Shown: positions 8,005 to 42,053 of the stretch, in pieces | How positions within the stretch are numbered: the first letter of the stretch is position 1 | How the letters are laid out: the number at the start of each line of letters is the position of its first letter | Origin: Sphaerimonospora thailandensis | GTDB taxonomy: Bacteria > Actinomycetota > Actinomycetes > Streptosporangiales > Streptosporangiaceae | Length of the DNA: 64,000 nt | Direction: 5' to 3' | NCBI RefSeq assembly: GCF_016863115.1 | Contig: NZ_BOOG01000019.1 | Coordinates: forward strand, 62,001-126,000 | Translations under genes and position numbers: made by a program | The notes under the pieces: generated by a model | The model's input: only the letters and a program-made list of their open reading frames with translations | Told to the model about the DNA's origin: nothing | Database searches by the model: none

Positions 8005-9099
8005 ATGAGTCACTCCGACGACCGGCGGCCTCTTCGGCCGCGGCAGGCTGCCAGGCGTTCACGGTCCCGGGCACGGATCGGGGCACGGATCGGGGCACGG
8101 ATCGGGGCACGGATCGGGGCACGGATCCAGGTGCGCACGCCGGCGCGGACGCTGTTCTGGCGGCTGTTCGCCATCAACGGGTTGGTGTTCACCGTCGGCA
8201 CGCTCGTGCTCGCGCTGTCGCCCGCCACGGTGTCCTCGATGGTCCGCCTGGCCGAGTTGCCGGTCCTGACGATCGGGCTGACGCTGATCATCACTGCGAA
8301 CGCGCTGCTGCTGCGGGCCGGCTTGGCCCCGCTGGACGCGCTGACCACGCTCATGCAGCGCGTCGACCTGCTGGAATCCGGAGACCGGCTCGCCGACAGC
8401 GGCAAGGGAGACCTCTCCCACCTGATCGGCACGTTCAACTCGATGCTCGACCGGCTCGAGTCGGAGCGCAGCGCGAGCAGCGCGCACGCGCTCGCGGCGC
8501 AGGAGGGGGAGCGGCGGCGCATCGCACGGGAACTGCACGACGAGATCGGCCAGAGCCTGACCGTGGCGCTGCTGAGCCTCAAACGCGTCGTCGACCGGGC
8601 GCCCGACGACCTGCGTGAGGAGCTGCGCGCCGCCCAGGAGACGGTCCGTTCCAGCCTCGACGAGGTGCGGCAGGTAGCGCGCAGGCTGCGTCCCGGCGTG
8701 CTCGAAGATCTCGGGCTGCAGAGCGCGCTGAACGCGCTGAGCAGCGAGTTCTTCCAGGTCAACCAGGTTCGGATCACGCGGGCGGTCGACCCCGGGCTGC
8801 CCGATCTCAGCGAGGACGAGGAACTGGTCATCTACCGGATCGCACAGGAGAGCCTGACCAACGTGGCCAGACACGCCCGCGCCGGCCATGTGGAGCTGTC
8901 CCTGACCGCGGGCGACGGCGACCTGACCCTGCGTGTCACCGACGACGGGCGCGGCGGTGCCCGGCAGGAGGGCGCCGGAATACGCGGCATGCGGGAACGC
9001 GCCCACCTCATCGGCGCGCGCCTGACCATAACGTCCCCGCCCGGCGGCGGCACCGACGTACGTCTGGTCATACCCGTCGAGGCCGAACGCAGCCGATGA
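8005..9099 (+). CDS. NarL-type sensor histidine kinase
   Basis: 364-aa membrane kinase. After a basic N-terminus come two hydrophobic segments (about residues 48-70 and 85-103) with a short loop, then a HAMP-like linker (LAPLDALTTLMQRVDL). The HisKA_3 dimerisation helix follows with RIARELHDEIGQ (His178), then a HATPase domain (VTDDGRGG, GIRGMRERA). There is almost no extracytoplasmic domain, so it probably senses in the membrane. The N-terminus carries a tandem ARIG repeat. It overlaps the response regulator by 4 bp. The ATG has only a distant purine-rich Shine-Dalgarno. Confidence 0.93.
   Translation: MSHSDDRRPLRPRQAARRSRSRARIGARIGARIGARIGARIQVRTPARTLFWRLFAINGLVFTVGTLVLALSPATVSSMVRLAELPVLTIGLTLIITANALLLRAGLAPLDALTTLMQRVDLLESGDRLADSGKGDLSHLIGTFNSMLDRLESERSASSAHALAAQEGERRRIARELHDEIGQSLTVALLSLKRVVDRAPDDLREELRAAQETVRSSLDEVRQVARRLRPGVLEDLGLQSALNALSSEFFQVNQVRITRAVDPGLPDLSEDEELVIYRIAQESLTNVARHARAGHVELSLTAGDGDLTLRVTDDGRGGARQEGAGIRGMRERAHLIGARLTITSPPGGGTDVRLVIPVEAERSR
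8071..8127 (+). repeat. 12-bp tandem repeat inside the histidine kinase gene
   Basis: Four perfect copies of GCACGGATCGGG (8071-8118) followed by a partial fifth copy. They encode repeated Ala-Arg-Ile-Gly in the cytoplasmic N-terminus just before the first membrane segment. The unit is a multiple of three, so copy-number change would lengthen or shorten a positively charged tail without breaking the frame. Confidence 0.95.
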
Positions 9100-9776
9100 A
9101 CATGTCAGCGGAGTTGAACATGGAGACTGCCAAGACCCGCATCCTGCTGGCGGACGACCACGCCCTGGTCCGGCACGGGCTGCGCCTGATCATCGACGCC
9201 GAGCCCGATCTCATGGTCGTCGCCGAGGCGGCGGACGGTGCCGAGGCCGTCGAGGCGGTCTCGGCCGGCGAGATCGACCTGGTCATCCTCGACATCGCGA
9301 TGCCGCGGATGACCGGGATCCAGGCGGCCCGGGAAATCAACCGGCGGGCGCCCGGCGTCCGCATCCTGATCCTGTCCATGTACGACAACGAACAGTACTT
9401 CTTCGAAGCGCTCAAAGCGGGCGCCTCGGGCTACGTGCTCAAGTCGGTGGCCGACCAGGACCTCCTGGAGGCGTGCCGGGCCGCGGTGCGCGGCGAGCCG
9501 TTCCTCTATCCGGGGGCGGTCACCGCGCTCATCCGCGACTACCTGCACCGCGCCCGCCAGGGCGAGCAGATGCCCGCCAGCATCCTGACCCCGCGCGAGG
9601 AGGAGATCGTCAAGCTGATAGCCGAGGGCAACTCCGCCAAGCAGATCGCGGAGACCCTCTTCATCAGCGTCAAGACCGTCGACCGGCACCGCGCGAACAT
9701 CCTGCAGAAGCTCGGCATGCGCGACCGGCTCGAACTGACCCGCTACGCCATCCGCGCCGGCCTCATCGAACCCTGA
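9096..9776 (+). CDS. LuxR/NarL-family response regulator
   Basis: 226-aa regulator with a receiver domain (acidic pair ADDH; phospho-acceptor Asp66 in VILDIAMP; Lys in VLKSVADQD) and a C-terminal LuxR helix-turn-helix (LTPREEEIVKLIAEG, KTVDRHRANILQKL). It overlaps the kinase stop by 4 bp and is certainly its cognate partner. Two more in-frame starts (MSAEL, METAK) lie within 8 codons, so the exact N-terminus is uncertain. Targets are unknown; the 246-bp repeat element begins 19 bp after its stop. Confidence 0.95.
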   Translation: MNMSAELNMETAKTRILLADDHALVRHGLRLIIDAEPDLMVVAEAADGAEAVEAVSAGEIDLVILDIAMPRMTGIQAAREINRRAPGVRILILSMYDNEQYFFEALKAGASGYVLKSVADQDLLEACRAAVRGEPFLYPGAVTALIRDYLHRARQGEQMPASILTPREEEIVKLIAEGNSAKQIAETLFISVKTVDRHRANILQKLGMRDRLELTRYAIRAGLIEP

Positions 9777-9794: not shown

Positions 9795-10040
9795 GTGATC
9801 TTGTAGTTTCTCGCAAACCGGTGCCGTGAGCAGGTACTACCACATCCGTGATCTTGCAGGTTCTCGCAGGTCTGCCGTCTGGCCAGGTGAACACCATGTG
9901 TGATCTTGCACTCCCGCGTCAACTGTAAGATCATCAAGCGGATTTACGCACGTCAGGCGGCATGCCTGCGAGAAAGTGCAAGATCGGCGAAAAGGTTTGG
10001 GCAGGTCACAAGCCTTGTGTGTGAGAAACTGCAAGATCAC
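9795..10040 (+). repeat. 246-bp symmetric five-turn repeat element, copy A
   Basis: Intergenic element built from a bipartite motif GATCTTGCAG + TTTCTCGCA. Forward copies begin at 9795 and 9848. A central dyad runs from 9900 to 9934 (GATCTTGCA facing TGTAAGATC). Reverse copies end at 9987 and 10040. The steps are 53, 52, (34), 53 and 53 bp, so every site is about five helical turns from the next. The sequence between motifs is mostly unlike copy B, yet the spacing is identical. It encodes no plausible protein. It fills the gap between the response regulator and the acVLRF1 gene. Confidence 0.9.
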
Positions 10041-18689: not shown

Positions 18690-18753
18690 CCGCTACGGCA
18701 CGGCAATGCAACCTGGCCCCCCGAACGGGGGAGAGCCTGGCTGACTGATCGGC

Positions 18754-19474
18754 CTACGGCTGTGGATCACCCCACACTCGGAAGCGATAGAGCGCGTGCC
18801 CTCGTTCCAACCATTCGAGTGACAGGCGGACTCCGGCGATCCGCTCCATCAGGACGAACGCGTGGACACGCCAGTCCTCCAACGTCCCCTTTCCTGGGAC
18901 GAGGCCGTTCTCAATGTCGGCGTATCGCTCGTGCAAGTTGAACAGGCCGTCGAGGTGCTTCTTGATGGCTGCGGTGTCGCCCCAGATGTCGCCTCCGTCC
19001 TTGAACCTGCACAGGAGGCGGCCACCGCGGGCGTAGGACAACGAGAACCGATAAAGGGTCTCGCTGCCTATCAGGCATAGGGCCTCACCCCCGGAGGAGA
19101 GCCGTTCAAGTGCCCCCGAAGGCTCGATCGCCGCTGTACTCCACCGCGAGGAACCATGGCGGTTCCTCGGCCAACAGCAGGAATCTTCCTACTATGCCCT
19201 CCTCAGGGTCGTCGTATGACTCATTGATCAGGCCTTGCAGATCGCCTACGGTGACATCGAGCACTTCGACTTCGAGAGCTTGGATCACCTGGTCGGCCGA
19301 GGGTGCCCGGCACCACGTCAGGCACATCTCGCCGATGTGAGGACTGCGCTCGATCAGGTCCCTGTAGTGCGCCTCAATGTCGGCCAACGAGGTCCCGCTC
19401 CTTCCATCGATTTCGTGTGTCCCAATACGGCCGGCCGCCGCCGGGAAGGCGACGACGTCGATGCGCTGGGGCAC
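18754..19474 (-). pseudogene. DUF6461-like protein gene split by a one-base frameshift
   Basis: Two minus-strand frames together make one protein. The first (from 19474) has the family-like GEMCLTWCRAPSADQVIQAL and ends ...WFLAVEYSGDRAFGGT at a stop at 19106. The second frame goes on without a gap: ALERLSSGGEALCLIGSETL, then YRFSLSYARGGRLLCRF, to 18754. Reading GGGGG (19113-19117, minus strand) as GGGG joins them in frame as AFGALERLSSGG. This layout resembles DUF6461 proteins, which are frequent near actinobacterial toxin-immunity genes; the family name is from memory. It may be a decayed gene, a sequencing error or a switchable homopolymer. Confidence 0.6.
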
Positions 19475-19691
19475 GGGCTACCGCTGCCGGGCGACTCTCA
19501 CGCTGTCGGAGTCGTCGTCCAAGCAGATTTCGCTGCGGCTCAGCGGCGTCAGCGGTTAGGGGTGCAACGGCGGCACGCTTGTTCTGTCCGGGCTGCGGAA
19601 CAACCAGGTGACCGTGCGGGTGCTCAGCTCCGAAGGCAGCGTCAGGATGTCGGGAACCGCAAGGGACACCGCTCGTTCATGACCATACTCT

Positions 19692-19800
19692 TCAGTTGAG
19701 GGCGAGGGCGAGGGCGGTGCCGATGAGGTGGATGTGGCTGAAGGCCTGGGGGAAGTTGCCGAGTTGACGGTCCTTCGCGGTCGAGCTCCTCCACGGAGCG
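19692..19800 (-). pseudogene. Fragment 1 of a GH15 glycoside hydrolase gene (3' end, internally deleted)
   Basis: On the minus strand this reads RQLGNFPQAFSHIHLIGTAL and stops at the same place as the intact GH15 gene at 25506. After ~75 bp the match jumps: 19766-19800 (TCCTTCGCGG, then CTCCTCCACGGAGCG) corresponds to about 26000-26030 of the intact gene. It is therefore a diverged copy with ~430 bp deleted. Differences from the intact copy show it is not a recent duplicate. Confidence 0.8.
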
Positions 19801-19890
19801 GTGGTTCTCGGGGAGATGCTGTCGCATGGAGTTGGATAGCTGGTGTGGCCAACTGGCGAAGCCGGCAGTCGATAATGAGAGGTGGTTGAG

Positions 19891-20148
19891 GTGAATGAGC
19901 TGGGTGATGGACTGGAAGAAGTCCGGGCAAGGGGCGACCTTGTGCAATTCATCCAGGGGCTTCGTTTGAATCTCCGGGAAGATTCGAGCTCCTGGGAAAA
20001 TGTGAGTCTTGACGGCTATCTGGAGGCGATGTCCGCCTGGCTGGAGGATCTCGAGGGGCTTATGAATAACAAGGGTCACCCTGTTCCCGAGAACCCGAGC
20101 TGGGCGCTGATCGCTGAAATGCTCCAGGCTGCTGCCGTTTATGAGTGA
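19891..20148 (+). CDS. DUF7660-like small protein, possible immunity protein
   Basis: 85-aa acidic protein: DLVQFIQGLRLNLRED, WENVSLDGYLEAMSAWLEDL and a PSWALIAEMLQAAAVYE ending. This D-L-V-x-F-I ... P-S-W ... A-A-x-x-Y-E pattern matches small orphan proteins (DUF7660) common beside polymorphic-toxin genes; family from memory. The GTG at 19891 fits GAGAGG at 19877-19882 better than the GTG at 19882. The stop overlaps the next gene's GTG by 4 bp. No toxin is present nearby. Confidence 0.65.
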   Translation: MNELGDGLEEVRARGDLVQFIQGLRLNLREDSSSWENVSLDGYLEAMSAWLEDLEGLMNNKGHPVPENPSWALIAEMLQAAAVYE

Positions 20149-20399
20149 TGAACGCCGGAGACAGTGCGTTGAGTAGGTCCGCCGACATCCAATTCACGTT
20201 TCACAGGCCCGTTCAGGTCCCTGTGACCCTCAGGGCGATGCTGGCCCAGAGAATCTCGTTCTCGTGGAATGGAGTCGTCTCGTATCTTATCGACGAGGAT
20301 GGCATGTATGTCTGGAAGGAGGTTCCTGATGTCCGGCTAACTGACGAGATAGATTATGAGGGTGAGGCGCGTTGTGGTCGGACTTCAAGAAGAAAATGA
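20145..20399 (+). CDS. Hypothetical protein, possibly truncated
   Basis: 84 aa from the GTG at 20145 (ATG at 20148 also possible), overlapping the stop of the previous gene. I do not recognise it. The middle reads IQFTFHRPVQVPVTLRAML, SFSWNGVVSYLIDED, MYVWKEVPDVRL, like a small mixed alpha/beta immunity protein. The ending GEARCGRTSRRK has different composition. In another frame the same DNA gives ALWSDFKKKMKEF, so a frameshift near 20365 is possible. Confidence 0.5.
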   Translation: MMNAGDSALSRSADIQFTFHRPVQVPVTLRAMLAQRISFSWNGVVSYLIDEDGMYVWKEVPDVRLTDEIDYEGEARCGRTSRRK

Positions 20400-20426
20400 A
20401 GGAATTTAGGAGGGTGCGCTGTTGAT

Positions 20427-20933
20427 ATGAAGTCACTAGCTGAAGGAATAAGGGCCCTCGCAGACCTCGTCGGAAAGGAGATCGTAGACTACCGAGACGA
20501 GCACGAGAGGTGGCCCATCTATCTCGATGCCCTAAATGGAGACGACCCCAGGGCAAAGCGAGCTCTTTTTGAAATCATGCCCTGGGAGACCGATGAACAC
20601 ATCCATCTATCCGTCGTCCTGCACATGCTGGAGCAGGTGTCGAGGAATGAGAGGCCGACATGGGTTGAACGCCTCTCCGATGAGTGCAGCATCCAATACG
20701 CCCGGGCCAGGGCCGACGACATCGTAGCTATGGAAACGATATTAACGGAGGGGCTTGCAGACGGTGTGGAGCAAGCACTTGAGACGGGGTCGAACTGGCT
20801 CCAACTCCACCTTGCGAAAAGGAGTGAATGCCTCCGAGCCTTGGAGGAGTTGTCTACTTCTGGCCGCACGAAGCGAATCAGGCGGACCGCCAAAGAACAG
20901 ATTGCAAAACTCCGCGATTCAATGAGTGAGTAA
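20427..20933 (+). CDS. Hypothetical helical protein
   Basis: 168 aa, no signal or membrane segment. It is almost entirely helical and charged (KEIVDYRDEHERWPIYLDAL, HLSVVLHMLEQVSR, AKRSECLRALEELSTSGRTK), as in HEAT-like immunity or adaptor proteins. The ATG at 20427 follows AGGAGGG at 20408-20414. GC is visibly lower than in the flanking core genes, in line with horizontal transfer. Function unknown. Confidence 0.6.
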   Translation: MKSLAEGIRALADLVGKEIVDYRDEHERWPIYLDALNGDDPRAKRALFEIMPWETDEHIHLSVVLHMLEQVSRNERPTWVERLSDECSIQYARARADDIVAMETILTEGLADGVEQALETGSNWLQLHLAKRSECLRALEELSTSGRTKRIRRTAKEQIAKLRDSMSE

Positions 20934-21049
20934 GTGAAGCTTGCGCCGCGCCGATCCGTCCTGCGACGAGGCGTGGCGCCGACATCCTGTAAGGACCCCA
21001 TAGCTAGCCTGACTTTTATGGCAAACGAAAAGAAATTCATCGAAGTCGA

Positions 21050-21481
21050 GTGAGGCTGATGATTAACTCTGTTGTGGATTTTCTCGCTCTTCGCTTCAGT
21101 GATAATCCGTCGGACTATAGGCGCGCGGCCCGCGAATCCGCACCCCTGGAAGTGTGGCGGGAGTTAGTTAGGCACCACCCGGAAGCACATTTCTGGGTTG
21201 CGCATAACAAAACGGTTCCTGTGGAAATCCTTCATGAACTGTCCTCAAGTTCTGACTGGAGGACTCGCTTGATGGTCGCGTCAAAGAACAAGGCAACCCG
21301 GGAAATATTGGATATTCTGGCGAGGGATAGTCACGAGGCTGTTCGCCAAGTTGTCGCTGGTCATCACAACACGTCCATAGAGGTGCTTGAGGTATTGTGT
21401 GGCGATGAATGGGATCAGATTAGGAATGCGGCCCAAGAGAATCTGGACAGCCGAAATGCAATTGAAAACATTAGAGATTGA
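21050..21481 (+). CDS. LRV/HEAT-like repeat protein
   Basis: 143 aa with about four ~24-residue helical repeats: HFWVAHNKTVPVEILHELSS, TRLMVASKNKATREILDILA, VRQVVAGHHNTSIEVLEVLC, IRNAAQENLDSRN. The pattern VAxNxxTPxEVLxxLA is that of leucine-rich repeat variant (LRV) proteins. The start may be the GTG at 21050 or the ATG at 21059. A short upstream frame (MANEKKFIEVE, ending at 21053) may be the tail of a lost gene. It could be an immunity protein, given the neighbours; this is inference. Confidence 0.6.
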   Translation: MRLMINSVVDFLALRFSDNPSDYRRAARESAPLEVWRELVRHHPEAHFWVAHNKTVPVEILHELSSSSDWRTRLMVASKNKATREILDILARDSHEAVRQVVAGHHNTSIEVLEVLCGDEWDQIRNAAQENLDSRNAIENIRD

Positions 21482-21617
21482 TATCTGTGAGTTCGGAACG
21501 TTGTGACGGTGCGTCGGCGACTTTGGCGCAGCGCGCACAGTTGCTGCCGTTGATCTTCAGCATGACGTGCCTGTGAGCTCTGGACCCACGTGCGCCATTG
21601 CATCTATGGAGGACCAT

Positions 21618-21686
21618 TCAGTTGAGAGCTATGGTGGTGCGGATGAGGTGGATGTGGCGGAAGGCCTGGGGGAAGTTGCTGAGTTG
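21618..21686 (-). pseudogene. Fragment 2 of a GH15 gene (3' end)
   Basis: Minus-strand reading QLSNFPQAFRHIHLIRTTIA ending at a stop (21618-21620) in the same position as the intact GH15 gene. Similarity covers about 69 bp and ends abruptly on both sides. It differs from both fragment 1 and the intact gene, so it came from another GH15 allele or an older event. Confidence 0.75.
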
Positions 21687-21973
21687 ACGTCAGAGGCCGG
21701 GGCGGTGGTCGTGCCGGGTTCCCCGGCCTGCGACCTTTACCGTTGCCGATCGACGCCGGCCGATTACTGTCAGGGAAAGGGAGAGCGAACGAGATTCTGT
21801 GATATGGGCTGGTATCTCCGTAGGCTGGTTCCGATTCTTGAGACGCTCGGACTGAGTGAGATCGAGACCAGAGACCTGTTCTGACCGGCTAAGTGCTACG
21901 GGAAAGCCGATCCACCGCAGTGCATCTGACGCGAGGGCGTGAATCTCGTGCTCGGGAGAGGTAGGGTCCCATT

Positions 21974-22306
21974 ATGGAATCGATCGGTGACGGAAGGATG
22001 CGTCCGGCAGGAAAGAGGGGCGAGGGGACACCATGGGCCCGCCTGCTGCTGTTTGTATCCCTTTATTCCCTGTCGGTACTATTGACTATGGTCAGCTTCG
22101 CCGGAATCATTCATCCGTACGCCTGGATGCCCGGGAACGAAGAGTACGTCGATCCGGATGTCGCTCTGGGCGCGTTGGTCTTCGCGGCCTCGGGATTTCT
22201 GCTCACCGTTTGTTCTGTGCTTGTCTTCCGTAAGTCATGGCTCGCTTGGATCTTGTGCGGGCCTGTGCTCGTGCTTTCCGCAAGCCGGATTATCGAGGCT
22301 TGGTGA
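21974..22306 (+). CDS. Small membrane protein, paralogue of the gene at 22554-22862
   Basis: 110 aa with three hydrophobic segments (LLLFVSLYSLSVLLTMVSF, VALGALVFAASGFLLTVC, WLAWILCGPVLVLSA). The loop IHPYAWMPGNEEYVDPDVAL has a near match (IHPYWWQPGGEDEVDPDIAL) in the minus-strand gene 250 bp away. The two are clear paralogues in opposite orientation. Function unknown; such small membrane proteins in toxin-immunity or defence islands can be immunity or effector proteins. Confidence 0.6.
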   Translation: MESIGDGRMRPAGKRGEGTPWARLLLFVSLYSLSVLLTMVSFAGIIHPYAWMPGNEEYVDPDVALGALVFAASGFLLTVCSVLVFRKSWLAWILCGPVLVLSASRIIEAW

Positions 22307-22524
22307 GGTCTTGGCCTCCGCTCTTTTGAGTTCGGCGGAGGGCGGCGTGATCTTCGGCGAATTACGTGGATGAAGGGATACGACAGCAGGTAGCGGGCCA
22401 TCGTAATACACCGACTGAGGTTGTCGTCAGACTTCTCGACGCCCCTGGAACGAGGTTGGCCGCGTCGAATAAATCAGGTGTGCGAGAATCAGCTGAGGAC
22501 ACGTGCTAAGGTAGCCACGGGCGC

Positions 22525-22556
22525 TGAGCCTGAATCCACCATTTGATTTAGGCTCA
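22525..22556 (-). terminator. Hairpin at the end of the minus-strand membrane protein gene
   Basis: TGAGCCTGAAT (22525-22535) pairs with ATTTAGGCTCA (22546-22556) with one G-T wobble and a 10-nt loop. It includes the stop codon of the gene at 22554. It could end transcription from both sides of this convergent junction. Confidence 0.6.
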
Positions 22557-22862
22557 GTGGGCAGACTGGAAATCGTGGATTGCGTCTATCGCGGCAATCA
22601 TCCGGCCTGCCGAGAACAGAATGACGAAGCAGCAGAATATCCATGCGATCCAGGAACGGCGTAACATCAACCCGGCGGCAAGTGCAAAACCAGTGCCTAC
22701 GACAGAAAAGACGAGTGCACCGAGGGCGATATCCGGATCGACCTCATCTTCTCCACCCGGCTGCCACCAGTAAGGGTGGATGTCTCCGAGGTAGCTGTAA
22801 ACCGTAGCCATAAAGGAGAGGATGAACAGCCCGAGATATGTCAGAACATGAGCTACACGCAC
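22554..22862 (-). CDS. Small membrane protein, paralogue of the gene at 21974-22306
   Basis: 102 aa with three hydrophobic segments (VLTYLGLFILSFMATVY, DIALGALVFSVVGTGFALAA, WIAWIFCCFVILFSAG). It shares the IHPYxWxPG-E-VDPDxALGALVF core and the RxSWxAWI motif with its neighbour. The ATG at 22862 begins where a GH15 fragment region starts upstream. Function unknown. Confidence 0.6.
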   Translation of the reverse strand: MRVAHVLTYLGLFILSFMATVYSYLGDIHPYWWQPGGEDEVDPDIALGALVFSVVGTGFALAAGLMLRRSWIAWIFCCFVILFSAGRMIAAIDAIHDFQSAH

Positions 22863-22899
22863 TCGCCCTCTATAGCATAGCCGTTCCCTGCAGAGCAGG

Positions 22900-23177
22900 G
22901 CCGTCGGTCGGGCTGTAGGTGAGTGCCTTGAGTGTGATCAGCGAGCGGACCACCGCCTCCCGCCAGCGGCCCTGATGTTCGCATCGGGAGACCCATTCCT
23001 CCCACAGCCGCCGGGTCTCGACGAACTCCTCGATCGGGTCGATCACCTCGGGTTGCGGCTGATGGGAGGGGTGCCAGGTGAAGACGAACGGCAGCCGCTG
23101 CAGGTCGCGTTCAGGTGGCCGTCGATGCGGCGGAACCACGGCACGATCCGGCCGTAGCCGAACCGGATGCGGAGCGG
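22900..23177 (-). pseudogene. Fragment 3 of a GH15 gene (middle part)
   Basis: The minus strand encodes LPFVFTWHPSHQPQPEVIDP, IEEFVETRRLWEEWVSRCEH and VVRSLITLKALTYSP, nearly identical to the intact GH15 gene at 26560-26755. The match then jumps over ~100 bp to the region matching 26855-26914 (IVPWFRRIDGHL in another frame). The gene is dead: both ends are missing, and it has an internal deletion and frameshift. Confidence 0.85.
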
Positions 23178-23413
23178 CCGCAAGCTCTGGCAGTTCGACC
23201 ATTTGATGCGGCCGAGGGTACGAAGAGGAGCCGTGATCGCAAGAAGGATGCGTTGGACTGATCAGCGGAGATATGATGCGATCGGAGTCTTTACGGCTGC
23301 CCGTGCGAAGCTGAGTCAAGCACAAGCGCTGTCCGCAGAGCGCTGAAGCGCGCTGGTCACAGCGGTGGTAACTGGGTAGTTGTCCTCCGCAACCTGGTGG
23401 AGGTGGAGGGTCG

Positions 23414-23604
23414 GTGAGTGTTATTCATGTTCGTCACGTTCGGAACGCGCTTGCTGGGGAATTCGACGGGCTGATCGATCTGTCCGATGTGGCAGCGAAC
23501 ACTCAGGAGTCTCCGAGGGGTGCGCATGCGCAATTGCGCAGTTTCTCAGGGAAAAGGGATCGCTGGTCGAACTGGCCAAAGCTGAGCGTGAGGGCGAGCA
23601 GTGA
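23414..23604 (+). pseudogene. Small gene with AIPR-like N-terminus, frameshifted
   Basis: The GTG at 23414 has a strong Shine-Dalgarno (GGAGGTGGAGGG). The protein begins VIHVRHVRNALAGEFDGLID, LSDVA, which resembles the start of AIPR (abortive infection) proteins. The frame then degenerates at nested palindromes near 23521-23540 (TGCGCAATTGCGCA). The other frame continues plausibly (AIAQFLREKGSLVELAKAER) and its stop overlaps the ATPase start by 4 bp (GTGA). I read it as one short gene broken by one base. The AIPR link is tentative. Confidence 0.4.
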
Positions 23605-24893
23605 TGAAGCATGACATCGAGGCCGACCCGGCACCGAGCCCTCCGTTCGTTTCCCGAGTTCAGGTCCGGGGGTTCCGGTCCCTCGCCGAGTGCGATGTGC
23701 GGTTGGGGCCGCTCACGGTGCTGGCCGGGGCCAACGCTTCAGGGAAGTCGAATTTCGTCGACGCGCTGCGCTTCGTACGTGATGCCGTCGCACGCTCCCC
23801 AGGGCAGGCGTTGGCGGATCGCGGTGGTCTGGACTCCGTCCTGACGCGTGCCCGCTCGGCAGGGCCTGAGCCCGCTCAGGCCGCGGCCACGTTCGTCATC
23901 GCTTTGGAGCTGTCGCTGGGCTCCGCCGATGGCACTGCCGTCTACGAGGTGGAGATCGGACGTGATCCGGCGGGAGAGCGCTCCCATCTCGTGCTCAGGG
24001 AGACTTGCGTTCTCCAGCTTCCTGAGGAGGAGGTCTCCTTCACCGCGGACTTGGGCGCCGATGGGCGACGGGTGGTCCGAGGCGGGATTCCGGGTGCGCG
24101 GCTTGGAGTGGAGGAGTTGCTACTGCCGATCGTGGGCCGCCTGGCTCCTTACGACATCCTGCTTCGGTCGCTGCTGAGGCCACGCTTCTATGAGCTGGAT
24201 TCGGAGATTTTGAGGTCTCTGGACGAAACGGCGGCCGGGCATTCCCAGCTCGGCGAGCACGGCGAGCACCTTGGTCAGGTGCTCGGCCACTTGGCACGTG
24301 ATCACCCTGCTTTCAAGGAGTCCCTGGATGAGTACCTGCGTGCGCTGATCCCCCTGTCACTTGGCGTGGATCAGCGGCTTCAGGGCGACTACGCCACGAT
24401 CCAGGCCAGATTCTGGACCGGTGAGCCGGCGCTTCCCTACTGGACGGCCGTCGCGGAAGGCAAGGTCCGTGCCGGGGATCCGTACGTTGAGGTGTTCCAG
24501 CGGAAGCAACTCTCCGAAGGCACGGTCAGGGCTGCGGGCGTTCTCGCGGCACTGCACCAGCCGGACGTGCTGACCGGCCTCATCCCCCTCGTCGCCATCG
24601 AAGAACCGGAGACCGCCATTCACCCCTCGAAGGTCGGTGTGCTCCTCGCGGTGCTCAAGGATGCCTCGGCGCGAACTCAGGTGATCGTGACCACACAGAG
24701 TTCGGATCTCCTGGATCCTGAGGAAGCGCACCCTTCGATGCTGCGGATCGTGGAGATGACGGACGGTGCGACCCGTGTCGGAGAGCTCAGTGAGTACACC
24801 CAACGTCACCTGATCGAGCACCCGTCGCAGCTGCCCGAGATGCACCGGCAAGGCCACCTGCGCCCAGTAGACCCTGCCGGTCAGGGGGCGTGA
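23601..24893 (+). CDS. OLD-like AAA ATPase (AAA_21), probable phage-defence ATPase
   Basis: 430-aa SMC/ABC-like ATPase. The start VQVRGFRSLAECDVRLGPLT and Walker A LAGANASGKSNFVDALRFV are typical of AAA_21/OLD proteins. The signature is LSEGTVRAAGVLAAL, Walker B LVAIEEPETAIHP, followed by the switch TTQSSDLLD. There is no TOPRIM domain in this chain; it is supplied by the next gene, which overlaps by 4 bp. This ATPase + separate TOPRIM layout resembles PARIS and other two-gene OLD-type systems. The start is the GTG at 23601, coupled to the gene before it. Confidence 0.85.
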   Translation: MMKHDIEADPAPSPPFVSRVQVRGFRSLAECDVRLGPLTVLAGANASGKSNFVDALRFVRDAVARSPGQALADRGGLDSVLTRARSAGPEPAQAAATFVIALELSLGSADGTAVYEVEIGRDPAGERSHLVLRETCVLQLPEEEVSFTADLGADGRRVVRGGIPGARLGVEELLLPIVGRLAPYDILLRSLLRPRFYELDSEILRSLDETAAGHSQLGEHGEHLGQVLGHLARDHPAFKESLDEYLRALIPLSLGVDQRLQGDYATIQARFWTGEPALPYWTAVAEGKVRAGDPYVEVFQRKQLSEGTVRAAGVLAALHQPDVLTGLIPLVAIEEPETAIHPSKVGVLLAVLKDASARTQVIVTTQSSDLLDPEEAHPSMLRIVEMTDGATRVGELSEYTQRHLIEHPSQLPEMHRQGHLRPVDPAGQGA

Positions 24894-25501
24894 GCGCGAT
24901 GGTGTCTCACGTTCGCATCGCCACTCTCGTAGAGGGACATGGCGAGGTCGAAGCCCTACCCGTGTTGCTGCGCAGGCTCGCCTTGGAGATCGCGCCTGAA
25001 CTGTGGGTGGACGTGCCTGAGCCGCGCCGAGTCGGGCGGGACTCGTTGCTGACCGCTCGCGGCATCGAGTCGGCGGTCGACCAGGTCGTTTCCAACATCG
25101 AAGGCGTGACAGGCGTCCTCGTGCTGCTGGACGCTGACGATGACTGTCCGGCGAACCTCGGACCCGCTCTCCAAGCCCGTACCAGGGCCGCCAGGCCGGA
25201 TGTGCCGTCTGCTGTTGTGCTGGCGAACAGGGAGTTCGAGGCATGGTTTCTGGCCGCCGCCTCCTCATTGGGCGGGCGGCGGGGGCTCGCTCGCGATCTA
25301 CAGGTGCCGCCGGACCCGGAAAGACCACGGGGGTGTAAGGAGTGGCTGACAAAGCGCCGGGTGGATGGCCGTCCCTACGATCCGACCAAACACCAAGCCG
25401 GCTTGGCGGCGGTGTTCGACCTTGGTCTGGCGCGTGCCAACTCGCCTTCGTTCGACAAGTTCTGGCGTGAGGTGGAGTACCTGATCACCGGAAACAGGTG
25501 A
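24890..25501 (+). CDS. DUF4276 TOPRIM-like protein, predicted effector partner
   Basis: 203 aa. The N-terminal RIATLVEGHGEVEALPVLLRR and the LVLLDADDDCPAN motif supply the glutamate and the aspartates of a TOPRIM metal site. VLANREFEAWFLA is the third DUF4276 hallmark, and the C-terminal KxWLxKR and PTKHQAGL stretches also fit the family. It overlaps the ATPase gene by 4 bp (GTGA). TOPRIM nucleases paired with OLD-like ATPases cut nucleic acids when a phage triggers the ATPase; activity here is inference. Its stop is only 4 bp from the stop of the convergent GH15 gene. Confidence 0.82.
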   Translation: MSAMVSHVRIATLVEGHGEVEALPVLLRRLALEIAPELWVDVPEPRRVGRDSLLTARGIESAVDQVVSNIEGVTGVLVLLDADDDCPANLGPALQARTRAARPDVPSAVVLANREFEAWFLAAASSLGGRRGLARDLQVPPDPERPRGCKEWLTKRRVDGRPYDPTKHQAGLAAVFDLGLARANSPSFDKFWREVEYLITGNR

Positions 25502-37936: not shown

Positions 37937-38071
37937 TCAGCCGCAGAGGATGCTGAGGCTGCTGTTCTCGTGCGGGGTGCAGGCGAGCAGACTGAGGTTG
38001 CTGCCGCCGCCGCCGTGGCCGCCGCCGTGGCCGCCGGGGGCCTCGAGGGTCTGCAGGTCGAGGAGCGCCAT
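37937..38071 (-). CDS. Class III lanthipeptide precursor 2 (RamS/SapB-like)
   Basis: 44-aa peptide nearly identical to precursor 1: leader MALLDLQTLEAPGG, then a Gly/His linker and core SNLSLLACTPHENSSLSILC followed by Gly. Both labionin-type units are intact. The ATG at 38071 overlaps the kinase-cyclase stop by one base (TGATG), and AGGAGG lies inside the end of that gene, so translation is coupled. The two genes clearly arose by tandem duplication that took the Shine-Dalgarno region with it. Confidence 0.9.
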   Translation of the reverse strand: MALLDLQTLEAPGGHGGGHGGGGSNLSLLACTPHENSSLSILCG

Positions 38072-40848
38072 CACGTACACCTCCTTTCCATGCTGGTCGG
38101 GACCGTGGACCCGGCGGTGGTACGCGGGGAAACCCGCGCCTGGCACCGCCGGGAAGCTTGCGGAACGGGGGGCTCGAAGAACGGGAGGTGCACCGGTTCG
38201 TCGTGCAGCGCGGCGCCGAGAGCGAACAGCACGCCGGCGCTCCCGGTGGCGAAGTCCATGGAAAGGCGCAGCAGCTGCGCCCCGGGGAAGGCCAGGCCGT
38301 CCCGGTACGGAAGCTCATGCCAGGCCAGGCGGGCGATCTGCGCGGTGATGTGCCCGGCGATGTGCTCGTCGGGCTGTCCGGGCTGTCCGGACTGTCCCGC
38401 TCTGTCGCGGCTCCGCCAGTCGGCCAGGCAGGCGATCATCCCGGCCCGGCCGGCGAACAGCCCCGGCTGGATGTAGTACGGGAGCGTGGCCACCGGGCTG
38501 ATGGCCGCCAGCGCCTCGGCGAACGCCTCGTCGTCCCGATGGGCCAGATAGCGGGCCAGGACGAGCCCGATGCCCGCCGATCCCTCGTCGAGGTACGGAT
38601 TGGTCCGCCACCCCTGCTCCACCTGGAGTTGGCCGTCGTCCCGGGTGACGCAGCGGCGCAGGTCCTGTCGCAGCGCGGTGGCCGCCAGGTCGAGGAGCGC
38701 GGGGTCGCCCGTGCGCTCGTAGGCGTGCAGGAACATCAGCGCCGGGCCGGCCGAGCCGTACATGAGACCGGCGTGCGGGTGCTTGCCGCCGCTGATCTCG
38801 GGGACGTCGTCCGGCCCGCCGAGCCGGTCGGCCACCGCGGCCACGAGCCGGTCGGCCTCCTGCCGGAAGTACGGCTCGCCGGTGACGTCGTGCAGGTGGA
38901 GGAGGTTCAGCGCCATTCCGGCCAGACCCCGGTAGAGACTCAGGTCGAGGCCAACGCTCTCCGGGGGTGCGGTGCTCTCCGGGGGTGCGGTGCTCGCCGG
39001 GAACGCGGTGCTCGCCGGGAACGCGGCGTGTCGGCAGGCCAACTCGGCCACGTCGAGGGCGTCCTGGCGGCGGCCGAGCGCCAGCAGGGCGTAGGCCACG
39101 CCGTGCAGCCCGTTGTAGAAGCCCGCCTCCCGCCGGTCGGCGGACGCTTTGGCCCGCCTGACCAGCCACTCCTCGTGCTCGGGGAACCGCCCGGCCCCGG
39201 TCGCCGCCAGCGCGTGGAGCACGCCAGCCGCCCCGTTGGCGAGGCCGAGCCCGCCGTCCGGCTCGAACTGCACGATGTCGCCGGGGAACAGCCGGTCGTC
39301 GCGCTCGGGGGACGCGCTCGCGATGATCGCCCTCGCGATGGCGTCCCGTACGGCCGGCCAGTCTCCCGCCGTACCGTCCCCGGCCTTCTTCGGAGACCGG
39401 GAGGGCTTGGGGGACTTGGAGAGCTCGGAGCGCTGGGGCTCGGGCCCGAGGATGGTCCGTACGGCGGCCTCGACCGTCTCCGGCGGCACCGGGAAGGTCT
39501 CGATGACGAGCCGCCCGATCTCCACGGCCTTCGGCCGGTGCAGCTGCAGCAGCATCGTCGCCATCGGCGCGAACACGGCGAGCCGCAGGCAGGCCAGCGC
39601 GTACTCGTCTGCCGCCACGCCGGCCCGGTCGGGCGGCGGGACGAAGCCCGGGTTGGCCAGCGTCGGCCGCCTGCGCTCGGCGGCGAGCGAGGACACCTCG
39701 AAGTCGATGAGCACCACGCGGTCGCCGTCGACCAGGATGTTGAAGGGATGCAGGTCGCCGAAGACCACGCCGCGCCCGTGCAGGGCCGACACCGCCCGCC
39801 GGACCCGGTCGAGCATCCCGGTGGCCCAGTCCGCGTAGTCCTTGATCATCCCGGGCGTCCGGTCGGCCCGGGTCAGCGGGTGCCGCTGGGCGATGAGCTG
39901 GCTGAGCGTGATCCCGTCGATGTGCTCCTGTGCCAGGAAGTGATGGCCGCCCAGGACGAAGTGGTCGCGAAGGGCCGGCACGGCGTCCAGACCGGCGAGC
40001 CGCTCCATGATGTCGGCCTCGTGCCGCAGGCGGGTGACCGCGTCACGTCCGGCCGCGTCGAGACCGGCGTGCGGCCGCGCCTCCTTCAGCACCACACGCT
40101 CACCTGTCCGGGTGTCGTGTCCCACGTACACGCCACCGCCGTTGGAGAAGTGCAGCACGCCGTCCACCTGGTACGGCAGGCCCTCCAGCGTTACCGAGCT
40201 CCGGGCGGCCAGGTGTGGTTCGAGGAAGGCGGGCAGCCTGACCCAGGACGGCAGGGCGAAGGCGGGTCCTCTCACGTCGGGTACGAGCCGGCCGTCCGGG
40301 TCCTCGATCGCGAGCACCCGCTCCCCGGAGTCCGACACGCAGTGGCGTTCGGCGAATCCGCCGTACCGGACGAACAGCGGGCCCTCGCCGTACCGCAGGT
40401 CGCTCAGGATGTACGGACCCTCGACGCCGTCGAGGATCTCGGCGAGCTCCTTCAGGACGAGCTCGAGTCTGGCCTCGTCCTCCGGATAGATGGTGACCAG
40501 CTTGCCGCTCGAGCCGCGGAAGGCGTACTTGGAGTTCTGCATGGTCATGACCCGCCGGCCGCGGAGAAACTTGAAGGGCAGCCCGCCCGCCGTGCAGTAG
40601 TCCCACGCGGTGTCGAGCACCCGCTCCGCCTGCTCCCGGCAGGAGGAAATGTGGATCTTCCAGCCCTGTGCCGGCAGGGTGGTGCCGACCGGCGCGTAGT
40701 GCATCCAGGTGTCCGTCGCCTGATGCGCCCACCCTTCGGGTACGGGTCGCTCGGTTATCGCGAAATCGGGATGCTCTGTGCGCTTGCGGTCGAGAGTGTC
40801 ATAAAACACGGGATCTGCGAGGCAGTAAATTTCATACTTACTAATCAC
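38071..40848 (-). CDS. Class III lanthionine synthetase, kinase-cyclase (RamC/LanKC-like)
   Basis: 925 aa from the GTG at 40848, which has GAGGGG upstream. Domain order: N-terminal region (YEIYCLADPVFYD, GRRVMTMQNSKYAFRGSSGK) to ~210; protein kinase-like domain with VVLKEARPHAG (Lys), VVFGDLHPFNILVDGDRVVL and LIDFEVSS; then a LanC-like barrel with NGLHGVAYALLALG and HAGLMYGSAGPALMFLHA. The barrel lacks the Cys-His zinc ligands, as in class III. It phosphorylates and dehydrates Ser in the precursors and forms the rings. A repeat insert (FPASTAFPASTAPPES) lies in the barrel. Its stop overlaps precursor 2. Confidence 0.93.
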   Translation of the reverse strand: MISKYEIYCLADPVFYDTLDRKRTEHPDFAITERPVPEGWAHQATDTWMHYAPVGTTLPAQGWKIHISSCREQAERVLDTAWDYCTAGGLPFKFLRGRRVMTMQNSKYAFRGSSGKLVTIYPEDEARLELVLKELAEILDGVEGPYILSDLRYGEGPLFVRYGGFAERHCVSDSGERVLAIEDPDGRLVPDVRGPAFALPSWVRLPAFLEPHLAARSSVTLEGLPYQVDGVLHFSNGGGVYVGHDTRTGERVVLKEARPHAGLDAAGRDAVTRLRHEADIMERLAGLDAVPALRDHFVLGGHHFLAQEHIDGITLSQLIAQRHPLTRADRTPGMIKDYADWATGMLDRVRRAVSALHGRGVVFGDLHPFNILVDGDRVVLIDFEVSSLAAERRRPTLANPGFVPPPDRAGVAADEYALACLRLAVFAPMATMLLQLHRPKAVEIGRLVIETFPVPPETVEAAVRTILGPEPQRSELSKSPKPSRSPKKAGDGTAGDWPAVRDAIARAIIASASPERDDRLFPGDIVQFEPDGGLGLANGAAGVLHALAATGAGRFPEHEEWLVRRAKASADRREAGFYNGLHGVAYALLALGRRQDALDVAELACRHAAFPASTAFPASTAPPESTAPPESVGLDLSLYRGLAGMALNLLHLHDVTGEPYFRQEADRLVAAVADRLGGPDDVPEISGGKHPHAGLMYGSAGPALMFLHAYERTGDPALLDLAATALRQDLRRCVTRDDGQLQVEQGWRTNPYLDEGSAGIGLVLARYLAHRDDEAFAEALAAISPVATLPYYIQPGLFAGRAGMIACLADWRSRDRAGQSGQPGQPDEHIAGHITAQIARLAWHELPYRDGLAFPGAQLLRLSMDFATGSAGVLFALGAALHDEPVHLPFFEPPVPQASRRCQARVSPRTTAGSTVPTSMERRCT

Positions 40849-41009: not shown

Positions 41010-41255
41010 GTGATCTTGCAAATGCTCGCAAGCCATGGCGCCGAGCAGGCGGTTTGGTGTTCGTGATCTTGAGTTTCTCGCATGTCTGCCGTGTGACCGG
41101 GCGAAATCTTCTTGGCGATCTTGTACTTCGATGCCGACTGCAAGATCACCGAGTGAACAGGCGCAGGTCGGATGGCCTGCTTGCGAGTTTCTGCAAGATC
41201 ACGAAATGGATCTGGGCAGCTCAGGAGCCCAATTTGCGAGAAACTGCAAGATCAC
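41010..41255 (+). repeat. 246-bp symmetric five-turn repeat element, copy B
   Basis: Same length and same internal geometry as copy A: forward motifs begin at 41010 and 41063, a central dyad spans 41115-41149, and reverse motifs end at 41202 and 41255 (steps 53, 52, 34, 53, 53). Motifs are GATCTTGCA + CTCGCA, and TGCGAGAAACTGCAAGATC in reverse. Sequence between motifs is largely different from copy A, except short words such as GTCTGCCGT and GAGCAGG. It lies between the kinase-cyclase promoter and the 3' end of the short histidine kinase gene. Confidence 0.9.
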
Positions 41256-41297: not shown

Positions 41298-42053
41298 TTA
41301 TCGGGGGGACGGGGTCGGGATCTCGGCGGTCAGCCGGAACCAGCCGTCCGAATCGATGACCGTGGTGACGGTGCCGCCCAACTCGGCGGCCCGGCTGCGG
41401 AGGTTGTGGATGCCGCTGCCGGCGCCCGGCGCCGTGAGGGGGCCGACGCCGTCGTTCGCGACGCTCAGGCAGACCTGGGAGTTCGTCCCCTTCGCCTCGC
41501 CGGCCCCGCTCATCTCGACCAGCGTCATCTTGATCACACAGAGGCTCGCACGGCTGTGCCGCAGCACATTCGTCACGGCCTCGCGCACGGTGACCGCGAG
41601 CATCGCGTTCAGCTCCGGCGCCAGCTCGACCTCGGACGCCTCGACCTCGCAGCCCGTGCCGTACGCGGTGAGCACCGCCCTGGCGTTGACGAGCTCCGAC
41701 CACAGCGAGATCTCCTGGTACGACCGGGTCACGTTGCGGATGTCGGTCGCCGCCTGCCGGATCGACTCGATCGCCTCGGCCAGCGCCGCCCGCGTGGGGG
41801 AGTCCTCGTCGGCGCGGCGATAGGCCAGTTCGCTCTTCAGGGAGGCCAGCCACAGGCGGCTGCCGAGCAGGTCGTGGACATCCCTGGCGAGCCGCTGCCT
41901 GGCCTCGGCGGCGGCCTGCCGTACGGCCTCGGCCTGCAGTGCGCTCAGCCGCCGTAATCGCCGCGCCAGCAGCATCGGCAGCACGAAGAGCGGCACACCG
42001 ATGATGACGAGCGCGATGAGCACAATCGGACTGGACATATCTGCGCTGGGCAA
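41298..42053 (-). CDS. Short NarL-type histidine kinase
   Basis: 251 aa from the TTG at 42053, which has GGAGGA seven bases upstream. One N-terminal membrane helix (SPIVLIALVIIGVPLFVLP) is followed directly by a HisKA_3 segment (RLARDVHDLLGSRL, phospho-accepting His) and a HATPase domain (REAVTNVLRHS, VANDGVGPL, GIHNLRSRAAELGG). It has no sensory domain. No response regulator is adjacent; the nearest orphan regulator is at 33278, across the lanthipeptide operon, so they may be partners. Confidence 0.88.
   Translation of the reverse strand: MPSADMSSPIVLIALVIIGVPLFVLPMLLARRLRRLSALQAEAVRQAAAEARQRLARDVHDLLGSRLWLASLKSELAYRRADEDSPTRAALAEAIESIRQAATDIRNVTRSYQEISLWSELVNARAVLTAYGTGCEVEASEVELAPELNAMLAVTVREAVTNVLRHSRASLCVIKMTLVEMSGAGEAKGTNSQVCLSVANDGVGPLTAPGAGSGIHNLRSRAAELGGTVTTVIDSDGWFRLTAEIPTPSPR

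Follow-up and report, generated by a model that had tools for sequence, protein, structure and literature searches.

The REP/BIME elements of E. coli, Stenotrophomonas and others occur in many extragenic copies with inverted repeats, carry binding sites for proteins, have REPs in alternating orientation, and have suggested roles in termination and chromosome organisation (PMC2817692). In E. coli, BIME-2 is cut by gyrase (PMC6379681). DNA-bound proteins can also stop RNA polymerase, as described for CcpA, CodY, Fis, Tus, H-NS and others in bacteria and for Reb1 in yeast (PMC10310618), although we found no genome-wide array of fixed pitch after genes described there. In eukaryotes, Sal-box arrays bound by TTF-I likewise lie after transcription units and stop the polymerase. 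Plasmid centromere arrays such as sopC, with 43-bp repeats, hold a protein-binding site at a constant pitch near whole helical turns. Here we examined a family of arrays in soil actinobacteria that have inverted arms, a fixed 53-bp pitch and a position just after genes. Unlike BIMEs, they are direct arrays that face inward. Unlike sopC, they are dispersed over many chromosomal loci. The comparison with Sal-box and Reb1 termination concerns function only, as homology was neither tested nor claimed.

We first asked whether the element noted by a first-pass annotation in Sphaerimonospora thailandensis (genome G000) is real. The window analysed was a 64,000-nucleotide stretch of contig NZ_BOOG01000019.1 (positions 62,001 to 126,000). 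The annotation had described a symmetric 246-bp element at 9795-10040 with a bipartite motif present twice forward, once as a central dyad and twice in reverse, at steps of 53, 52, 34, 53 and 53 bp. This observation was confirmed. Copy A (9795-10040) comprises + strand sites at 9795-9815 (outer) and 9848-9868 (middle, step 53), a left inner half-site at 9900-9910 (+, step 52) and a right inner half-site at 9924-9934 (-), which together form the central dyad 9900-9934, and - strand sites at 9967-9987 (middle) and 10020-10040 (outer). A second conserved block lies within each unit, at 9827-9834 (+, TGAGCAGG; family consensus TGACCTGC), 9880-9887 (+, TGGCCAGG), 9948-9955 (TGACGTGC on the - strand) and 10001-10008 (TGACCTGC on the - strand). 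Copy B (41010-41255) has the same 246-bp length, with steps of 53, 53, dyad, 53 and 53. Its sites are at 41010-41030 (+, outer), 41063-41082 (+, middle, with a 1-bp deletion), 41116-41125 (+, inner half-site GCGATCTTGT, read by eye), 41140-41149 (-, inner half-site), 41182-41202 (-, middle) and 41235-41255 (-, outer, exact consensus). Seven matches to the 21-mer with up to 3 mismatches were found in the window, against a mean of 0.00 in 100 shuffles.

Both copies lie at the 3' ends of genes. Copy A begins 18 bp after the stop codon of a LuxR-type response regulator gene (9096-9776, +; Response_reg, GerE), and copy B lies 42 bp after the stop of a sensor-kinase-type gene (41298-42023, -; HisKA_3), with a RamC/LanC-like lanthipeptide synthetase gene (38071-40704) on its far side. 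Elsewhere in the window, a gene-poor island of low G+C was seen at 18700-25500 (0.53-0.66 against about 0.70-0.73 beside it). One of two long ORFs there (23601-24893, +) looks by eye like an AAA/RecF-type ATPase.

To determine how widespread the family is, the host genome and its relatives were searched, as the first-pass annotation had proposed. In the own genome, GTGATCTTGC-N5-CTCGCA occurs 132 times with up to 2 mismatches, against 4 for the reversed control. The loci fetched from the first 100 of these give 60 clusters, a lower bound, and dyads also occur on contigs that were not fetched. With up to 1 mismatch, 105 matches were found in the own genome and 342 in its sister S. mesophila NBRC 14179 (G034), with 0 for controls. 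With a one-unit pattern over 341 genomes of the family, counts were 40 (G000), 114 (S. mesophila), 141 (Planotetraspora sp. A-T 1434, G059), 98-393 in five g23 genomes, 18-54 in four genomes of genus g65, probably Microbispora although this was not verified, and 0-8 in the others, where most of the places listed look like coding sequence. G077 matches P. thailandica. The family is abundant in S. mesophila and Planotetraspora, present in some g65 genomes, and near background in the rest of the family. Across 396 genomes of the phylum, a two-site pattern was found in G000 and one other genome, G211, from another family of the class. Its two matches look different, with GTGATCATGCAATCCCGCC and a second GTGATCATGC 52 bp on, and may belong to an unrelated repeat family.

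We next examined the anatomy of the repeat. The 53-bp unit consists of GTGATC(T/A)TGC at 1-10, a variable part to 21, TGACCTG at 33-39, an A/T-rich pair at 44-45 and C at 53. TGACCTG and C53 are conserved across genera. In Sphaerimonospora, positions 13-15 are AAA in 29, TTT in 26 and ATT in 17 of 100 units. Base 7 and the bases after the core change in concert by genus, from GTGATCTTGC...CTCGCA in Sphaerimonospora to GTGATCATGCACAGGTTC in Planotetraspora, as expected of a trans-acting binder. Counted from two sites up, arms hold 2-3 sites in Sphaerimonospora and 2-6 in Planotetraspora, and single-arm arrays keep the 53-bp step. Several details of the first-pass annotation were corrected by this analysis. 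The inner pair carries only the GTGATCTTGC half and not CTCGCA, the sequence between the motifs is not free to change, and the 34-bp central distance is not conserved but ranges from 13 to 215 bp in 94 two-arm elements searched with a 250-bp limit. In 12 fetched intervals, one or more called genes lie between facing arms.

The step, in contrast, varies little. Variable spacing had been named in advance as an outcome that would speak against an ordered array, and among loci picked by single sites, with up to 1 mismatch, 68 of 83 same-strand distances below 100 bp in G000 were exactly 53 bp, 7 were 52 and eight others occurred once each. In 30 S. mesophila loci, 42 of 46 were 53 bp. These step counts rest on G000 and S. 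mesophila, because the G059 loci and a further set of loci from relatives (below, the step-selected set) were fetched by a 52/53-step pattern and are biased in this respect. The first-pass annotation had read the step as five turns of B-DNA, placing all sites on one face of the helix. This fits 53 bp but was only weakly tested: step deviants cluster at whole turns with exact sites (n=24, V-test z=2.6) and not with 9/10 sites (n=63, z=0.6), several deviants are one subfamily, and many of the loci were picked by step. AT periodicity at 10.6 bp was not significant, which leaves AT phasing undecided. In the Planotetraspora loci L288-L290 and L187, spacers are lengthened by about 10 and 31 bp, in L289 by runs of a 10-11 bp repeat, i.e. 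by about one and three helical turns.

Given the locked step, it was of interest to determine whether the sites are under selection. Where two exact sites lie 103-108 bp apart, the best middle match had at least 8 of 10 bases, at 51-53 bp, in 47 of 47 intervals, against at most 6 in a control window; 20 of the S. mesophila loci were picked by us from a hit list. In orthologous copies of G000 and S. mesophila (11 segments, 34 units), the core is 96.5% identical, the tail 88%, block 2 78% and the remaining spacer parts 74% and 70%. Units were found by their cores and the alignments are local, which biases both figures upward. One aligned pair (L067/L128) shows many spacer substitutions with no length change in either arm and a 14-bp difference in the centre. 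Of 29 pairs of a G000 locus and a fetched locus with matching flanks, restricted to those not ending at a contig edge, 19 have an array within 350 bp of the expected place, against 12.8% for random positions, and 13 of 22 do so without S. mesophila. Copy B is among the pairs that do not (one locus compared, L231), and copy A had no pair.

We then tested whether the arrays act as RNA, in that a transcribed inverted array could form a giant 3'-UTR hairpin that ends transcription or protects mRNA. Copies A and B indeed fold stably as RNA (z -10.7 and -7.7), as we would expect of an inverted repeat. Compensatory base changes had been named beforehand as evidence against a DNA-level array, and none were seen. 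Mutual information within 402 units (457 cut at 80% identity) shows mainly neighbouring positions and pairs with base 7, which we read as genus effects, and no stem. The strongest pairing excess within units, 7-16 (0.70 against 0.53), was also read as a genus effect but was not tested apart. Spacers of the same level in the two arms are 0.494 identical (171 pairs), two spacers of one arm 0.499 and spacers of different elements 0.449. By level the values are 0.479, 0.469, 0.603 (24 pairs) and 0.525 (5), so that the third level stands out and is unexplained. AAA and TTT interchange at 13-15 in Sphaerimonospora also shows no stem. No Rfam family matched the window at gathering score, with only a sub-threshold Twister-P5 match (E=0.87). 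Taken together with the unconstrained centre and the single-arm arrays, these results led us to reject an RNA device as the main reading, and we consider it very unlikely.

Mobility was examined next, because terminal repeated sites facing inward resemble Tn7/Mu-type ends, a resemblance that was not tested, copy number differs several-fold between relatives, and a subfamily with similar spacers occurs at seven or more loci of Planotetraspora sp. A-T 1434, which shows that arrays can spread or convert within a genome. In a MITE-like reading, the sites would be transposase-binding sites, and copies would survive only where harmless, after genes. Transposase-linked copies with target-site duplications had been put forward at the outset as grounds for abandoning the protein-array view. 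Of 15 intervals of 350-5000 bp between facing arrays, 12 hold called genes that we read by eye as metabolic or housekeeping types (guanine-deaminase-like, BipA/TypA-like, cobalamin genes, FdhD-like and others) and one of unclear type (L233), none as a transposase. Three intervals had no called gene, no family search was made on these genes, and most copies in the genomes were not examined. No target duplication was seen by eye in the seven related copies, without a statistical test, so neither feature settles the matter. The arrays at orthologous places and the cores conserved at fixed loci speak against mobility, and we regard a non-autonomous mobile element as unlikely, though it is not excluded. 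A REP system dependent on a REP-associated tyrosine (Y1) transposase (RAYT) was rejected. PF01797, which does not separate RAYTs from other Y1 transposases, is absent from 6 of 10 array-rich genomes (G059, G124, G143, G103, G563, G558), present in G000, G034, G118 and G560, and present in 6 of 8 array-poor g65 genomes. Moreover, sites run in one direction within an arm, not in the alternating orientation of REPs. Viral or plasmid carriage was not supported either: the two-site pattern had 0 matches in viral contigs, and blastn found no match of copy A in plasmids or of copy B in phages. A relaxed pattern gave at least 120 stretches in viral contigs, which were taken for chance and not inspected.

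To determine where the arrays lie, genes were called with our own codon-usage script trained on the window, not taken from annotation. Of 195 arrays with called genes on both sides, from four sets of loci, 1 overlapped a gene, whereas 80 lay between convergent, 100 between tandem and 14 between divergent genes, against 144, 369 and 163 gaps in the same loci, array gaps included (Fisher p 3e-8 for divergent). In tandem gaps, 79 of 100 were nearer the upstream stop, and in nine G000 loci a called gene ends on the TGA of GTGATC. Half arrays in tandem gaps followed the direction of transcription in only 29 of 44 (p=0.049). This 3'-end position and the high copy number are also those of BIMEs, and raise the possibility of a chromosome-organising or topology element, in which the array would hold an architectural protein or gyrase at 3' ends where positive supercoils build up, without itself ending transcription. 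The exchange of AA and TT at 44-45 and of AAA and TTT at 13-15 suits minor-groove reading. However, this explanation does not by itself predict weaker terminator hairpins where arrays are (see below), and copy number differs several-fold between relatives. We consider it possible but doubtful.

The position after stop codons prompted us to investigate whether arrays take the place of intrinsic terminators. At the convergent gap after rel (RelA/SpoT), 11 of 26 genomes have arrays, one more (G124) is cut by a contig end, G564 keeps five weakened sites, G051 a short form, G559 and G556 only a compact dyad, and 10 have none. In the two g65 genomes with only a dyad (G556:C46 and G559:C18), which have few arrays, a lone 34-bp dyad hairpin GTGAYCTTG...CAAGATCAC stands at the place of the array, the only copy of this pattern in each, which is compatible with an RNA role. 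In G000, the outer left site of the rel array (L062:2930-3000) has been overwritten by a CCCCCATGGGT...ACCCATGGGGG hairpin, as if an array were turning back into a hairpin terminator. The best 45-nt hairpins averaged -32.5 kcal/mol in nine array-less gaps and -26.5 in ten array gaps (one-sided p 0.003), although S. mesophila, with its array, has the strongest single hairpin (-37.9), in its dyad. This comparison used 19 of 26 genomes; G564, G051, G559 and G556 were folded but, as intermediates, not tested, and G143, G124 and G007 were not folded. Hairpins of this kind, compact and G+C-rich, occupy the two gaps followed here in most array-less orthologues, whereas gaps with arrays at the rel locus measure 283-700 bp.

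The same exchange, with exceptions, was observed at a second orthologous gap, after a gene ending GGGDFGGGDW, in 25 of 26 genomes (G007 left out). Seven genomes have only an array (mean -16.1), 15 have none (mean -30.1, 13 at -26 or better), and 3 (S. mesophila, G563, G564) have the hairpin followed by an array (p 3e-4). Two of the 15 array-less genomes lack a strong hairpin. Over convergent gaps in the fetched loci, a hairpin of -25 kcal/mol or better within 110 nt of a stop was found in 7 of 36 array gaps against 24 of 29 others in Planotetraspora/Microbispora-type loci, that is, the step-selected set other than known S. mesophila, and in 6 of 13 against 9 of 11 in G000. Gaps with one site were left out, S. 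mesophila had too few gaps of one class, and 35 loci (L219-L253) of the step-selected set were not assigned to a species and may hold some S. mesophila. Relative to mononucleotide shuffles, the 36 array gaps of the first set showed no near-stop hairpin excess (median 0.1), against -7.1 without an array. In G000 (12 and 10 gaps), the values were -4.6 and -12.0, weaker with an array but not absent. The whole-gap contrast was smaller (median -27.5 against -31.2, p 1.5e-4, and -26.6 against -32.9, p 0.02). Genomes share ancestry, so these p values overstate independence. Overall, arrays seem to substitute for intrinsic terminators at these gene ends.

The interpretation offered by the first-pass annotation, an ordered protein array such as a nucleoid, segregation or silencing complex rather than an RNA or a coding gene, was partly supported. 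A DNA-level array with a locked step is supported; free spacers, a fixed 34-bp centre, and roles in segregation or silencing are not. Position and the exchange with intrinsic terminators instead point to 3'-end punctuation of transcription. The fixed step, conserved cores, free centre, little sign of covariation and concerted change by genus call for a trans-acting DNA-binding protein that sits in rows, and place and exchange call for a 3'-end function that makes a hairpin dispensable. Our best explanation, held with moderate confidence, is a bidirectional transcription terminator/insulator made of DNA-bound protein. In this view, an unidentified sequence-specific protein would bind each 53-bp unit (GTGATCwTGC plus TGACCTG), one copy per about five helical turns on one face, and contact its neighbours, which would fix the step. 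Each arm would be one such row, and because the two arms point inward, RNA polymerase arriving from either side would meet the sites in the same orientation and be blocked; the array may perhaps also insulate supercoils. Our data show the array anatomy, the fixed step, the conservation of site cores, the 3'-end position and the exchange with hairpins, whereas the protein, its contacts and the block to polymerase are inferred. No candidate for the partner protein reached a test, and neither protein binding nor RNA 3' ends were measured here. More tentatively, a clade of actinobacteria may have replaced part of its intrinsic terminators by a protein-dependent, genome-wide, bidirectional termination system, with cooperative rows of one dedicated DNA-binding protein whose sites co-evolve with the protein from genus to genus.

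The first-pass annotation knew of no described element with this layout. This agrees with our literature searches, limited as they were, in which no fixed-pitch array after bacterial genes turned up; the RepRanger paper (PMC12306157) yielded one Actinomycetota table row. REP/BIME elements, structured RNAs and intrinsic terminators each fail a defining feature tested here, and a mobile element is unproven. Roadblocks by single proteins are known in bacteria and Reb1-type termination in yeast. The arrays could also give a modular, orientation-independent terminator part. Because some relatives in one genus (g65) have arrays and others hairpins at the same gene, the exchange can be followed and tested directly. 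Bacterial transcription is generally held to end at RNA hairpins or by Rho, and an array family that stands where hairpins stand in relatives would be a further, DNA-protein way to end genes, used dozens to hundreds of times per genome.
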